Shown: positions 29,106-54,258 of the stretch, one piece after another
Layout of the letters: each line of letters opens with the position of its first letter
Position numbering within the stretch: the stretch's first letter is position 1
Source: Sulfuricurvum sp.
Lineage (GTDB): Bacteria > Campylobacterota > Campylobacteria > Campylobacterales > Sulfurimonadaceae
Assembly: GCF_028710345.1 (NCBI RefSeq)
Contig: NZ_JAQTUH010000002.1
Span: 124,001-188,000 of the forward strand
Length of the DNA: 64,000 bases
Direction: 5' to 3'
Notes under the pieces: model-generated
Database searches by the model: none
What the model saw: only the letters and a program-made list of their open reading frames with translations
Told to the model about the DNA's origin: nothing
Translations under genes and position numbers: made by a program

Positions 29106-30041
29106 ATGTCAAAAAAAATAGCAATGATTTTTCCGGGGCAAGGATCACAAACCATCGGAATGGGAAAATCATTTTACGAAAACAGTGAGAAAGCACGTTC
29201 CATGTTTGAACGTGCAGGAGAACGTATCGGTGTTGATTTTTCAAAGTTATTATTTGAAGAGAATGAACAAATTAATGAAACAGCCTATACTCAACCCGCT
29301 ATTTTGCTTATTTCTATTATTGCGTATACATTGTTTCAAGAAGCTCGTCCAACTAACGCAACTTTGTTTCTAGGGCATTCTTTAGGTGAGTTGAGTGCTT
29401 TGTGTGCAAGCGGTGCTATTGATTATGTGGATGCGGTAGAGCTTGTCCATAAACGCGGCTTGTTAATGCAGCAAGCGTGTGAGGGGATCAGTGCGGGGAT
29501 GATGGTTATTTTGGGGTTGGATGATGCAAAAGTTGAAGAGATTTGTCTATCTGCTAACACTGAGGGAAAACGAGTTTGGCCGGCGAATTATAATCAAACA
29601 GGACAACTTGTCGTAGCGGGGATTAAAGAAGATTTGCAAGCTATGGAGAGTCTCTTTAAAGAAGCAGGTGCAAAACGTGCGATGCTTCTCAATATGTCGA
29701 TAGCGAGTCATTGTCCTCTCTTAGCCAGTGCAATGGAACCATTGGGTGAAGCGATGGAGAATATGGTGGGAGAGAGTTTTAGTGCCCCTATTGTCTCTAA
29801 TGCTTCAATGGAGAAATACGCTACCAAAAAAGAAGCGATAGAGTGGCTTAAAGTACAATTGATTCAGCCTGTTAAATACAAACAATCGATTGAATCTATT
29901 GCTTCAGAAGTAGAGATGATGATTGAGTTTGGTAACGGTTCGGTTCTCAAAGGATTAAACAAAAAAATTGTTCCTGATATTGAGACCATGAATGTGTCGG
30001 ATATGGAAACATTGGCAAAGGTTTGTGAAGCACTCTCATGA
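29106..30041 (+). CDS. fabD: Malonyl-CoA:ACP transacylase
   Basis: 311 residues. Loads malonyl groups onto acyl carrier protein for fatty-acid synthesis. N-terminal MIFPGQGSQTIGMG, nucleophile Ser in GHSLGELSAL, GMMVILGLDD, and catalytic His in NMSIASHCPLL. AAGGAATAAAG upstream. Stop overlaps the next start (ATGA). Confidence 0.97.
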   Translation: MSKKIAMIFPGQGSQTIGMGKSFYENSEKARSMFERAGERIGVDFSKLLFEENEQINETAYTQPAILLISIIAYTLFQEARPTNATLFLGHSLGELSALCASGAIDYVDAVELVHKRGLLMQQACEGISAGMMVILGLDDAKVEEICLSANTEGKRVWPANYNQTGQLVVAGIKEDLQAMESLFKEAGAKRAMLLNMSIASHCPLLASAMEPLGEAMENMVGESFSAPIVSNASMEKYATKKEAIEWLKVQLIQPVKYKQSIESIASEVEMMIEFGNGSVLKGLNKKIVPDIETMNVSDMETLAKVCEALS

Positions 30042-30796
30042 ATGTAGCCCTCATCCAATCATCGCCGAAACTAAGTCGTTCTAACCTCTCTGATGTGATT
30101 GCTTTGATTGAGGCTAATGCACATGCTGATGTGGTTGTTTTTCCTGAACTTGCGCTTAGTGGCTATATGCTTCAAGATAAACTTTTTGAAGATGCGTGGA
30201 ATAGTGATGAATTGGAACCGTTGGCGCAGTTAAGCAATCGGTGTGATATCGCCATTGGGGCAGCTTTATGGGATGGGGGAAGTGTTTATAACAGTGCTCT
30301 CTATTTTAGCGGTGGCAAGTTAGTTCACACGCATCATAAAAATCATCTTCCAACCTATGGAATGTTTGAAGAGGGACGCTATTTTGCAGCCGGTGAAGAG
30401 ATCGTAAGTTTTAAAACAACTTATGGAAATGCCGTTATGGTAGTGTGCGAAGATGTGTGGAGGGGGGAAAGTTTTGCTAAGCTTTCCACCCTCGATGTTG
30501 ATGTAATCTACGTTATGGCAGCCTCTCCAGCACGTGATTTTGGTGATAATGGTCTTATAATTGAAGCTCAATGGGATGCGTTGTTAAAATCTCTTGCGTT
30601 ACTTACTAAAGCGTATGTTATTTTTGTCAATCGTGTCGGTTTTGAAGATGGACTAGGTTTTTGGGGAGGAAGTCGTGTTATTACCCCTGCTGGGATTGTA
30701 GAACATCAGCTTTCCCTTTTTAAAACAGAAGCAAAGCAAGTTGAGTTAAACCATTCACTCCAAAAACTAGCCCGTTATATTGGAAAAAATACCTAA
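30038..30796 (+). CDS. Nitrilase-superfamily amidohydrolase (NAD synthetase glutaminase-like)
   Basis: 252 residues with the intact Glu-Lys-Cys triad of the carbon-nitrogen hydrolase fold: Glu37 (VFPELALSGY), Lys101 (HHKNHLP) and Cys137 (VVCEDVW). FPELALSGY and CEDVW resemble the amidase domain of glutamine-dependent NAD synthetase, but the synthetase domain is absent. It could supply ammonia to a separate NadE or act on another amide. Overlaps fabD by 4 bp. Its intact triad contrasts with the paralogue at 50822. Confidence 0.85.
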   Translation: MNVALIQSSPKLSRSNLSDVIALIEANAHADVVVFPELALSGYMLQDKLFEDAWNSDELEPLAQLSNRCDIAIGAALWDGGSVYNSALYFSGGKLVHTHHKNHLPTYGMFEEGRYFAAGEEIVSFKTTYGNAVMVVCEDVWRGESFAKLSTLDVDVIYVMAASPARDFGDNGLIIEAQWDALLKSLALLTKAYVIFVNRVGFEDGLGFWGGSRVITPAGIVEHQLSLFKTEAKQVELNHSLQKLARYIGKNT

Positions 30797-49533: not shown

Positions 49534-50631
49534 ATGTTAAACCTTCAAACACACAGTGAGCATTTTACCAACCCTCTCTATCTGGAGAGCGGTCGTATTT
49601 TGGAACCGTACGATATCGTTTATGAGACGTACGGTGTACTCAATGATGCCAAAGATAATGTCATTGTCGTGTGTCATGCCCTCACCGGTTCTCACCATGT
49701 AGCGGGAACGTATGAGGGTGATAACAAAGCCGGATGGTGGGATGGACTTATAGGTCAGGGAAAAGCGGTCGATACCGACAAATTTTTCGTGATCTGTACC
49801 AATGTCATCGGAAGCTGTTTTGGCTCGACCGGTCCGATGTCGATGCGTTATCCTTATAATGAACCGTATCGTTATAAATTTCCGGTGGTGAGCATCTTGG
49901 ATATGGTCAAAGCACAGCGTATATTGTTTGATCGTTTAGGAATCCATGAAGTTCACGCTATTATCGGTGGGTCGATGGGGGGGATGCAAGCATTGGCATT
50001 TGGGGTGTTTTACCCCAATTTTGCGAAAAAAATCATTGCGATGGCGACCACAGCGGCTACACGCGATTGGGCAATTGCTTTTAATAAAGTTGCTCAAGAG
50101 GCAATTTTAAAAGATCCTGAGTTTAAAAATGGGTATTACGACCCGCAAACGATCCGAGAAAATGGACTCTCAGGGATGGCGATAGGGAGAATGGCAGGGC
50201 ATATTAGCTTTTTATCTCACCAATCAATGGATAAAAAGTTTGGGCGTGAGTACAAACGTAATGATGGGCTATTTGAGTTATTCGGAAAATTCCAAATCGA
50301 ATCGTATTTGGAGTACAATGGGTATAATTTTACCAAATGGTTTGATCCGTTATCGTATTTGTATATTACGAAAGCAATCAATATTTATGACCTTTCACGC
50401 GGGTTTGATTCACTCGAAGAGGCGTTAGGGAAAATCACGGCAGAACTTTATTTGGTAAGCTTTGAGAAAGATATCCTCTTTTTACCATCGGAGATGGAAG
50501 AGATTGCCTCTTGTATGCGTACTATAGGAAAAGAGAATTTTGATTACATCGAGATAAAAAGTGATTATGGACATGACGCTTTTTTAGTAGAAATCGATAA
50601 AATTGAGCACTATGTAAAGGATGCCTTATGA
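49534..50631 (+). CDS. metX: Homoserine O-acetyltransferase
   Basis: 365 residues, alpha/beta-hydrolase fold. GxSMGG nucleophile elbow in AIIGGSMGGMQAL, the CHALTGSHHVAG oxyanion region, and C-terminal Asp/His (SDYGHDAFLVE). Supplies the O-acetylhomoserine substrate of the preceding enzyme. MetX or a succinyltransferase are the family alternatives; pairing with metY favours acetyl. Overlaps xseB by 4 bp. Confidence 0.94.
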   Translation: MLNLQTHSEHFTNPLYLESGRILEPYDIVYETYGVLNDAKDNVIVVCHALTGSHHVAGTYEGDNKAGWWDGLIGQGKAVDTDKFFVICTNVIGSCFGSTGPMSMRYPYNEPYRYKFPVVSILDMVKAQRILFDRLGIHEVHAIIGGSMGGMQALAFGVFYPNFAKKIIAMATTAATRDWAIAFNKVAQEAILKDPEFKNGYYDPQTIRENGLSGMAIGRMAGHISFLSHQSMDKKFGREYKRNDGLFELFGKFQIESYLEYNGYNFTKWFDPLSYLYITKAINIYDLSRGFDSLEEALGKITAELYLVSFEKDILFLPSEMEEIASCMRTIGKENFDYIEIKSDYGHDAFLVEIDKIEHYVKDAL

Positions 50632-50822
50632 GTAATGAAGAGACGTTTGAGACCAAAATCACCAACGCAAAAACCATTTTAGAAAAACTGATGGATCCAG
50701 CATTGCCGATGAATGAGAGTGTCAAAGCGTACGAGCAGGGGATGAGTGAGTTGAAAATCGCCGAAAAAATGTTAGAGCAGGCACAACTGCAAATTCAAAT
50801 CATCAAAAATCAGGATCAATAA
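50628..50822 (+). CDS. xseB: Exodeoxyribonuclease VII small subunit
   Basis: 64 residues. The ExoVII small subunit is a short helical protein; here FETKITNAKTILEKLMDPALPMNESVKAYEQGM includes the usual LEKL.dp.lpl.es...Y..G layout. It would assemble on XseA, which is not in this window. Joined by ATGA and a one-base overlap (TAATG) to its neighbours. Confidence 0.93.
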   Translation: MSNEETFETKITNAKTILEKLMDPALPMNESVKAYEQGMSELKIAEKMLEQAQLQIQIIKNQDQ

Positions 50823-51613
50823 TGCGTTGTGCAATTTTACAACTTCCCTCTATCGGTATGGGGAATAAAACACTCGAAAATTATACCCGTGCCGCGAGTC
50901 AAAAAGGGGTAAAGCTGATGGTGTTGGGGGAATATCTTCTCAACCCGTTTTTTAAAGAGCTGATTCAAACACCGATTTCAATGATACGAGAACAAAGCAA
51001 CCATCAAATCGAAACCCTCAAAGCGCTTGCAGAAAAATATGAGATGGTTTTTGTTGCCCCGATTATTACCGTCAAAAAGGGTGAATGTACCAAGATGATT
51101 GCCAAAATCACTGGACGTAGTGTGAGTTACTATCCTCAACAATTTTTGATTAACTATCCCCATTGGAATGAAGAGAAATTCTTTGCTAATCCGATAGAGG
51201 CAATCAAAGCTCCTATGATTTTTGGACTTAACGGATTTAAATTTGCCGTTATGGGGGGATTTGAACTCCATTTTGATCCCCTTTGGAGTGCTATCGACGC
51301 TAAAAATGTCGATGTAGTTTTGGTTCCGAGCGCTTCGACGTTTGAATCGCATAACCGTTGGCGTGAGTTGATTAAAACACGCGCATTTACCCATAATTGC
51401 TATATCCTCCGTGCCAATCGTGTCGGTGAATATTGTGATGAGAAACACGCATGGAAGTTTTATGGAGATTCTATGGTTGTCTCCCCCGATGGTGAGGTGG
51501 AAGCTGATTTGGGAAATACCGAAGAGCTTTTGATTATAGATTTAGACAAAAAAGCACTCAATGAATCGAAAAAAGGGTGGGGTTTTAAAGAAGCATTGAA
51601 AATGAGACGATAG
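50822..51613 (+). CDS. Nitrilase-fold protein lacking the catalytic Lys and Cys
   Basis: 263 residues of the carbon-nitrogen hydrolase superfamily by length and pattern: MRCAILQLPSIGMGNKTLEN, VLGEYLLNPFF with the Glu (Glu37), and PDGEVEADLG near the end. The catalytic Lys position (usual YxKxHL) reads YPQQFL (Gln106), and the Cys position (usual VxICYDLRF) reads VMGGFELHF (Gly146). Two of three triad residues are therefore replaced, and amidase activity is unlikely. It begins one base into the xseB stop, so it is translationally coupled. It may be a binding or scaffold protein. C-N hydrolase with an alternative chemistry cannot be excluded. Confidence 0.82.
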   Translation: MRCAILQLPSIGMGNKTLENYTRAASQKGVKLMVLGEYLLNPFFKELIQTPISMIREQSNHQIETLKALAEKYEMVFVAPIITVKKGECTKMIAKITGRSVSYYPQQFLINYPHWNEEKFFANPIEAIKAPMIFGLNGFKFAVMGGFELHFDPLWSAIDAKNVDVVLVPSASTFESHNRWRELIKTRAFTHNCYILRANRVGEYCDEKHAWKFYGDSMVVSPDGEVEADLGNTEELLIIDLDKKALNESKKGWGFKEALKMRR

Positions 51614-51614
51614 T

Positions 51615-53579
51615 ATGCACTATCTTGGATGGTTTTTCTTACTGTTCGCGATAAGCATCAATGCTAAAACACTAATATTAAATTCTGAACCTTCCTATGA
51701 TCTCGCACCGTACGTAAATTATCTCGAAGATCCCCATCGAGATTTAAATCTCTCTAGTGTATTAGAATCCCCTTTTAAAGAAAGTACTAAAAACAGTATC
51801 AATTTTGGATTTACCCATTCGGCATATTGGTTTAAAATTACCCTCGATCGAACGGATAATGAAGCATCGAAAAAATGGTGGCTCTCTATCGCCTATCCAT
51901 TGCTCGAAAAAATAGATATCTATCTCCTTTCATCGAATAACAGTGTTGTTGAACACAATGTACTCGGTTCATCCGTAGCACTGTTAGACCAACAGCTCTC
52001 TTTGCATAATTTTTTGACTGAGCTAAAATTGGGTCAAAACGAAAATATGACACTTCTGCTGAGAGTTCAAACCCAAGGCTCTATGCAGGTACCACTCACT
52101 ATCTACTCTTCACAGGGCTACTTTGAGGAAGGTGAATATACGAATTTGATTATCGGGATATTTTATGGTATTTTTGTCGTTATCTTTTTGTATAACATTA
52201 TCCTCTACTTTTATACGAGAGATGATAATTACATTCGATATCTTCTCTTTTTAACTACCTTTATTTTATGGCAACTCTCTTTTGATGGAATTGGGCGTAC
52301 ATATCTATGGAGTCAATCTTCATGGATGATTGAGTATGGTCCGGGCTTTTGGATTGCTTTTTCAGCTTTTACCTCTTTGTGTTTCGGCAAACGATTTTTG
52401 CAAACTAAAGACAATGCTCCTAAGGTTGATGTAGTGATTAAAATCATGATGGGTTTGAGTCTCATAATGACAGCTGTTTCAGCAATATTACCTTATTCTA
52501 AAACGATTGTTATAAATGCGACATTAGTGATATTGGTTCCAGTACTATTGTTAATATCAGGGATTGTAGTGATGAATAAAACACACCGTATCGCCCGTTT
52601 TTATCTTGCAGGGTGGAGCTCATTTTTAGTGGGGACTATTATTTTTGCTTTCAATAAATTTGAGTTAATCCCCAGTTTTTACGGCGTTAACCATGTCCAA
52701 CAGATCGGTGCGGCCATAGAGATGGTTTTTCTCTCATGGGCATTGGCAGATCGTGTATTCAGACTCCAATTGGAGTACATTGACAAACTAAACAATCTAA
52801 ATGATACATTGAGTCAAAAAGTGACTGAGTCGCTTGCGGAAGTTCGTAAAAAAGATGAATTATTTGTACAACAATCCCGTTTTGCAGCTTTGGGTGAGAT
52901 GATTGAGCAGATTGCGCATCAGTGGAGACAACCGCTCAATACTCTCTCTTTAATCAACCAAAATCTTTATTTTAAACGTCAGCTGGGTGGATGCAGCGAA
53001 GAGTGTTGTGATGAATCACACGAACAATTTCAAGAACATTTGCAGTATATGTCCAAAACGATTGATGATTTTCGTAATTATTATAAAATGGATAAACGTA
53101 AAGTGGCAGAAGATATGACTGAAATTGCTAATATCGCATTACGGTTGAGTGCCGTATTGCTCAATGATGCTAAAATCAAATGGCGAGTGGATAGTCAGAC
53201 AAGTCAAAAAGTGGTTTTAGCAAAAAATGAGATGATTCAAGTTTTTATGAATCTAATTAAAAATGGTCATGATGCTATTTTAGAACGTCACATTTCATCG
53301 GCTGAAATTATCATTACAATCTTTGAATCAGGAGAATTTTTAGAAGTTTGGGTTGAGGATAATGGTGGAGGGGTAGATGAAGCGATTATGGACAAAATAT
53401 TTACAATCTATTTTACCACTAAGCCCTCAAGCCAAGGGACTGGACTAGGATTACACATGTGCAAGTATATAATTGAAGAGAGTTTTGGTGGGACAATTGG
53501 TGTTGAGAATAGTTCCAAAGGGGCACGTTTTATAATTCGGTTGCCTTTAAATAACGATGAGAACAACAAGGAAGAATAA
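51615..53579 (+). CDS. 7TMR-DISM sensor histidine kinase (orphan)
   Basis: 654 residues. Signal peptide (about 1-17), periplasmic 7TMR-DISMED2-like domain (about 18-160; FGFTHSAYWFKITLDRTDNEASKKWWLSIAYPLLEKIDIYLL includes the family FxYWFxI core), seven membrane helices (about 178-380), a short coiled coil, then H-box GEMIEQIAHQWRQPLNTL (His435), N-box NEMIQVFMNLIKNGHDAIL and ATP lid EDNGGGVDEAIMDKIFTIYFTTKPSSQGTGLGLHMCKY. No response regulator is next to it. The sensing domain resembles those that bind carbohydrate-like ligands, but the signal is unknown. Confidence 0.92.
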   Translation: MHYLGWFFLLFAISINAKTLILNSEPSYDLAPYVNYLEDPHRDLNLSSVLESPFKESTKNSINFGFTHSAYWFKITLDRTDNEASKKWWLSIAYPLLEKIDIYLLSSNNSVVEHNVLGSSVALLDQQLSLHNFLTELKLGQNENMTLLLRVQTQGSMQVPLTIYSSQGYFEEGEYTNLIIGIFYGIFVVIFLYNIILYFYTRDDNYIRYLLFLTTFILWQLSFDGIGRTYLWSQSSWMIEYGPGFWIAFSAFTSLCFGKRFLQTKDNAPKVDVVIKIMMGLSLIMTAVSAILPYSKTIVINATLVILVPVLLLISGIVVMNKTHRIARFYLAGWSSFLVGTIIFAFNKFELIPSFYGVNHVQQIGAAIEMVFLSWALADRVFRLQLEYIDKLNNLNDTLSQKVTESLAEVRKKDELFVQQSRFAALGEMIEQIAHQWRQPLNTLSLINQNLYFKRQLGGCSEECCDESHEQFQEHLQYMSKTIDDFRNYYKMDKRKVAEDMTEIANIALRLSAVLLNDAKIKWRVDSQTSQKVVLAKNEMIQVFMNLIKNGHDAILERHISSAEIIITIFESGEFLEVWVEDNGGGVDEAIMDKIFTIYFTTKPSSQGTGLGLHMCKYIIEESFGGTIGVENSSKGARFIIRLPLNNDENNKEE

Positions 53580-53580
53580 G

Positions 53581-54258
53581 ATGATGCACTATTTTCATAG
53601 ACAAGTTCAATTATGGGGCGAAGAGACGCAGATGCAATTGCAATCCAAGCGTATTGCTATTATCGGTAGCGGAGGTTTAGGTTCATCGTTGGCATTTGCG
53701 TTGGGTGCTTCAGGGATTGGCGAAATACACATGGTTGATTTTGATACGGTGAGTTTGCACAATATCCATCGTCAAATAGCATTTAAAATGGGAGATGAGG
53801 GGAAATATAAATCGCAAGTGTGTGCTGAATTGATCCAAGCACGTTGCCCATATGTGAAAGCGACTGCACATGTAGGTAATTTTGAAGAGTTTTCCAAAAA
53901 AGATATTGCAGTTGATTTAATCATTGATGCGACCGATAATCTCCCCTCGCGCGGCGAAATAAATATGTATGCAAAATCCAAAGGTTTGCCGTGGGTGTAT
54001 GGTTCAGTTGAAGCATTTAACGGTCAAGTTTGTTTTTTTGAAGAAGCCTCTTTTAATGAACTTTTTAAAATCACCCAAAAAACACCTGCGGGGATTGCTG
54101 CACCTATCGTTATGCATATTGCATCGTTGCAAGCAAATCTTGCGTTGCGCTATTTGGCGGGACTGAGCGTCAAAAAAGATAAACTTTATTATCTCTTTTT
54201 TAATGATGAAGGGGAATTGGTAACGCAAAAATTTGCATTACCTAAAAGTGAGAATTAA
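53581..54258 (+). CDS. ThiF/MoeB/HesA-family adenylating protein
   Basis: 225-226 residues (ATG 53581 or 53584, both behind AAGGAA; an upstream frame start inside the kinase gene is less likely). E1-like Rossmann domain: IIGSGGLGSSLAFALGASGIG binding ATP, VDFDTVSLHNIHRQIAF with the conserved Arg, and DATDNLPSRGEINMYA. It activates the C-terminus of a ubiquitin-like sulfur carrier (ThiS or MoaD). The zinc CxxC pairs of MoeB/ThiF are not present and the protein is short. No thiS is adjacent. Confidence 0.85.
   Translation: MMHYFHRQVQLWGEETQMQLQSKRIAIIGSGGLGSSLAFALGASGIGEIHMVDFDTVSLHNIHRQIAFKMGDEGKYKSQVCAELIQARCPYVKATAHVGNFEEFSKKDIAVDLIIDATDNLPSRGEINMYAKSKGLPWVYGSVEAFNGQVCFFEEASFNELFKITQKTPAGIAAPIVMHIASLQANLALRYLAGLSVKKDKLYYLFFNDEGELVTQKFALPKSEN

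Follow-up and report, generated by a model that had tools for sequence, protein, structure and literature searches.

As far as is known, Nit2 / omega-amidase and the other small CN-hydrolases (2W1V, 2E11, 3P8K) keep the full Glu-Lys-Cys set of catalytic residues. The same fold is found in N-carbamoylputrescine amidase (AguB, or CPA in plants), whose pocket-building residues have been named for MtCPA (5H8I; PMC4812014). Nearest to the protein considered here stands Cj1056c of Campylobacter jejuni, released on 2025-10-08 as PDB entries 9WPN and 9WPO under the title 'nitrilase superfamily protein CJ1056C', with several chains deposited per entry. On Cj1056c we found a single statement, that low pH alters its expression (PMC5841378); our literature search returned no paper on 9WPN, on the function of Cj1056c, or on any pseudoenzyme of the nitrilase fold from this phylum.

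Our analysis concerns a relative of Cj1056c encoded at 50822-51613 of a Sulfuricurvum window, by which we mean the whole stretch of 64,000 nucleotides that was analysed. A sequence-only reading had described a full-length, unbroken nitrilase-fold gene, and the intact open reading frame together with the match to PF00795 (CN_hydrolase; E 4e-20, 72.5 bits against a cut-off of 23.2, residues 16-248 in a profile search) bears this out. The profile, which extends over the whole domain, and the predicted fold both place the protein in the nitrilase superfamily. Its nearest relatives found are proteins of Sulfuricurvum and of Campylobacterales MAGs, at 91-93% identity, while the matches in a plasmid collection all lie below 60% identity, and at about 27% among the ten listed. 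The NCBIfam hydrolase models score the protein at no more than 57 bits, against cut-offs of 249-500 for those of amidases and nitrilases. The best of them, the AguB model TIGR03381, gives 57.2 bits against a cut-off of 410.25, which leaves the protein outside that family; the AguB-like proteins of the order reach 140-301 bits with this model, also below the cut-off and yet far above the protein studied here.

Cj1056c and the Sulfuricurvum protein are 45% identical end to end and share the Gln-Gln of the Lys motif, the Gly-Phe-Glu of the Cys motif and a Lys at position 91. This similarity and the same degenerate motifs place them in one orthologous family, which in its wider extent is one clade with shared synteny. 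They differ in species and in that an experimental structure exists for Cj1056c, whereas for the Sulfuricurvum protein we have a predicted model (AlphaFold2, with 60 orthologues; pLDDT 85). The solved structure closest to this model is 9WPO (Z 33.0, rmsd 2.6 over 252 residues). After the two Cj1056c crystal forms come active amidases at Z 24-26, with N-carbamoylputrescine amidase at 24.6-24.7 and Nit2 and the other small CN-hydrolases at about 26; the solved members overall lie at Z 23-33. H. pylori HP0757, considered as a further orthologue, was dropped, as it is annotated as an N-carbamoylputrescine amidase and the Helicobacter-like neighbourhood does not fit; at the Helicobacter-like loci the order is xseB, the orthologue, and then a gene resembling serS.

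Two of the four active-site residues of the protein, the Lys and the elbow Cys, are changed, and both Glu are kept. We aligned 63 orthologues, most of them single representatives of the genera of the order, with 47 further CN-hydrolases from the same order, and we assessed conservation in a wider set of 157 distinct orthologues. The Glu column (37) holds Glu in all 110 aligned sequences, while Gln106 is present in 97% and Gly146 in 99% of the 157 orthologues. None of the 63 aligned orthologues has a Lys at the Lys column or a Cys at the Cys column, and no intermediate (Lys/Gly or Gln/Cys) was seen among the orthologues of the sampled order. The sequence-only reading had named just these residues, Glu37 kept, Gln106 for the Lys and Gly146 for the Cys, and the alignment with Campylobacterota homologues confirms them, as does the solved Cj1056c. 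That the columns are misaligned is ruled out, since the C-W/Y-D/E motif of the paralogues is replaced by G-F/Y-E in the orthologues without a gap and Cj1056c gives the same columns. Sequencing error and local decay are likewise ruled out, because the state is common to nearly all 157 orthologues and dN/dS is low. The triad change is a fixed trait of the family and not a peculiarity of one genome.

Could another residue have taken over as nucleophile? We found no conserved Cys anywhere in the 157 orthologues, which speaks against a substitute of that kind, and at the nucleophile elbow we found no conserved residue that could replace the Cys. Since no aligned orthologue carries the elbow Cys and there is no conserved substitute nucleophile, there is good evidence that the standard Glu-Lys-Cys amidase chemistry is lost, and from the alignment we judge it very probable that standard thiol-based amide hydrolysis is impossible for this protein. 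The second CN-hydrolase in the window, at 30038, does have E, K and C in the same columns, as had been noted before; it is a remote paralogue, falls across the tree from the orthologues and is related, below cut-off, to the amidase domain of the PRK13981 NAD+ synthase. The same genome holds another short CN-hydrolase (G000:C4:219542-220069, open frame 244 aa), and genes like it occur across the order; those examined keep the full E-K-E-C set.

Table 1. Genes and active-site codons discussed in the text, with positions in the window.
Feature	Position	Strand	Remarks
Triad-less nitrilase-fold gene, 263 aa, orthologue of C. jejuni Cj1056c	50822..51613	+	Intact ORF, ATG to TAG
Glu37 codon (GAA), kept active-site Glu	50930..50932	+	E in 157/157 orthologues, 47/47 paralogues
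Lys91 codon (AAG), family-specific invariant Lys	51092..51094	+	Lys in 157/157 orthologues, Asn in 46/47 paralogues
Gln106 codon (CAA), catalytic Lys position	51137..51139	+	Q 59, P 2, S 1, A 1 vs K 47/47
Glu117 codon (GAA), kept second active-site Glu (Glu132 of MtCPA)	51170..51172	+	63/63 orthologues vs 46/47 paralogues
Gly146 codon (GGA), catalytic Cys position	51257..51259	+	G 62, A 1 vs C 47/47
metX (presumed), homoserine O-acetyltransferase-like, older neighbour	49534..50631	+	4-nt overlap with xseB
xseB, exonuclease VII small subunit	50628..50822	+	1-nt overlap with the 50822-51613 gene (TAATG at 50822); upstream syntenic neighbour in most families
7TMR-DISM histidine kinase	51615..53579	+	Between the 50822-51613 gene and thiF
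thiF/moeB-like gene	53557..54258	+	Conserved downstream neighbour in many families
Second CN-hydrolase in the window, full E-K-E-C set, contrast gene	30038..30796	+	Same Pfam family

The orthologues form one clade in the maximum-likelihood tree, with support of 100/99, and group together in every bootstrap tree. One paralogue row, the long L260, attaches close to the base of this clade; the warning attached to it concerns only its own placement and not the grouping of the orthologues. At a threshold of E 1e-12 or better, the orthologue is present in 345 of the 397 sampled genomes, of which the listed ones all come from one order. No listed genome of family f7, which we infer to be the Arcobacteraceae, gave a match, nor did any of genus g29 within family f2, by inference Helicobacteraceae-like, or a few single genomes. 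Against the Sulfuricurvum relatives, dN/dS of the gene is 0.02-0.05, a rough value because dS exceeds 1 and is saturated, yet clearly low: the family is under strong purifying selection. Low dN/dS and wide presence together amount to selective retention in spite of lost catalytic residues, as expected of a pseudoenzyme. The proposal of a pseudoenzyme with a retained structural or regulatory use thus holds up as regards retention, the gene being near-universal in most families, and our analysis sharpens its 'structural or regulatory' towards ligand binding.

The argument for ligand binding comes from the pocket. Compared with MtCPA, the protein changes Lys121 to Gln, Cys158 to Gly and Trp162 to His, and keeps both active-site Glu, the aromatic positions of the pocket wall, most of the pocket walls in general, and the C-terminal Trp that, in the plant relative, comes from the other subunit of the dimer. 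Via the alignment, the MtCPA pocket maps onto positions 37, 43, 106, 110, 115, 117, 146, 147, 149, 150, 171, 172 and 253; Glu187 of MtCPA, at the pocket entrance, was left out because a gap prevented its placement. The mean entropy of the pocket positions is 0.65 bits, compared with 1.96 bits elsewhere in the protein (one-sided Mann-Whitney p 1e-5) and with 1.43 bits at a distance of two or three positions from the pocket residues (p 0.003), a contrast that comes in part from active-site residues conserved in any nitrilase. The walls are not frozen throughout, since 149, 171 and 172 vary. The near-invariant positions of the family include Gln7, Glu37, Tyr38, Phe43, Lys91, His114, Trp115, Glu117, Glu148, Arg179, Trp180 and Gly202.

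This conservation speaks for ligand binding, or for a new chemistry, over a purely structural role, although pocket conservation alone does not separate ligand binding from other constraint. On balance we favour the view that the protein binds a small ligand in its retained pocket. The ligand may be held by Glu37 and Glu117 along with residues peculiar to the family, such as Lys91 and His150, and the protein would then act as a ligand-dependent regulatory or binding protein rather than as a hydrolase. Our preferred explanation, which we regard as probable, is thus an order-wide pseudoenzyme for amide hydrolysis whose pocket is kept for small-ligand binding.

How might the same conserved pocket otherwise be explained? 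The protein could be a re-tooled enzyme that carries out a Cys-independent reaction with Glu37, Glu117, a relocated Lys91, His114 and His150. Lys91, His114, Glu117, Glu148 and Arg179 are indeed invariant in the 157 orthologues and His150 is present in 98.7%, and Lys91 replaces the Asn of the relatives while Lys106 is lost, as if the Lys had moved across a hairpin. The AlphaFold2 model joins strands 88-96 and 101-105 by a turn of four residues into a hairpin, in which position 91 would probably pair with position 106 across the strands. With Asn/Lys exchanged for Lys/Gln, the pocket would still have a Lys beside it, and such a move strikes us as slightly favoured. We put its chances no higher since it is read from the strand register, and the length of the hairpin differs between subfamilies. 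That the Lys moved (Asn91/Lys106 to Lys91/Gln106) while the Cys became Gly, giving either a sensor dedicated to a metabolite or an active site that works without the Cys, is a tentative suggestion. Against the re-tooled enzyme in particular stands the oxyanion hole, which normally needs a Lys at position 106, and no nitrilase-fold enzyme is known to work without the Cys; we regard such an enzyme as fairly unlikely. A hydrolase that is active after all, either because the catalytic residues have been misaligned or because some other Cys or Ser serves as nucleophile, is very improbable: both Glu remain, and 'carbon-nitrogen hydrolase family protein' is the name given to the solved orthologue, but the motifs align unambiguously, the family has no conserved Cys, and the NCBIfam hydrolase models stay far from their cut-offs.

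The protein could also be a purely structural or assembly subunit without a ligand, for example one that forms mixed oligomers with AguB or another paralogous CN-hydrolase. The C. jejuni entries with their several chains would fit this, and AguB-like genes occur in 90 of the 91 genomes that carry the orthologue, where presence was scored from strong PF00795 matches of AguB size in 24 genomes and from TIGR03381 at E 1e-40 or better in 66 of 67. In family f7, which lacks the orthologue, the AguB-like genes are mostly absent as well. However, the one exception among the 91 (G493) has the orthologue without an AguB match, several genomes that lack the orthologue keep a strong AguB-sized match, and AguB is near-universal outside one family, so that the association is a weak one, with kinship as a confounder. 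The pocket is, moreover, more conserved than the rest of the protein. We consider a ligand-free subunit unlikely, and the polyamine enzyme AguB as a partner is a weak lead and not a result.

The name carbon-nitrogen hydrolase, under which these proteins run, is contradicted by their sequence. Most families of the order, that of C. jejuni included, carry the protein, and much of its pocket is nearly invariant, so that a strongly selected, putative binding function is to be expected in well-studied organisms; the C. jejuni crystal structures make the question of function directly testable. The novelty is moderate, because an orthologue has already been solved, and the interest lies in the conserved pocket and in the possibly moved Lys, which, if it really moved, would illustrate clearly how an active-site residue can migrate.

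The surroundings of the gene point to old synteny. The order metX - xseB - orthologue - thiF recurs across many families (we take the gene at 49534..50631 to be metX, following the earlier note; Pfam yields Abhydrolase_1 only), and most lineages, with exceptions such as L161 and L162, keep xseB next to the orthologue also when metX or thiF is no longer beside it. Of the overlaps by which the gene had been said to be coupled to metX and xseB, the one with xseB exists, while metX is untouched by the gene and is overlapped by xseB instead. The functional coupling implied by that claim finds no support. Family f7 lacks the orthologue and retains metX and xseB, and in some genomes thiF too; the single f13 genome, likewise without it, retains xseB and thiF; and in the Helicobacter-like lineages, where metX was not found near the orthologue, the orthologue stays. 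Functional pairing with xseB, metX or thiF is thus unsupported, and since the neighbours remain without the gene in f7 and f13, we read the adjacency as old synteny, with no evidence of shared function. The 7TMR-DISM kinase stands between the orthologue and thiF here and in a few relatives (L061, L062 and L187), the commoner arrangement being without it; the kinase was inserted into an old gene order in particular lineages.

A few orthologues depart from the usual form. The one in L163 (G345) has 391 aa, with an in-frame, low-complexity insert of about 110 residues, rich in Ser, Asn and Lys, in the loop just before the Lys91 strand, and the orthologue of G387 gives a split match resembling it. 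In L165 (G452, family f2) the similarity is lost after about residue 196, as if by a frameshift, possibly from beginning decay or an assembly error. Finally, two MAGs titled 'Arcobacter sp.' (L061 and L062) carry the orthologue at 62% identity in a Sulfuricurvum-like gene order; since the orthologue is absent from f7, the inferred Arcobacteraceae, these titles are probably wrong.
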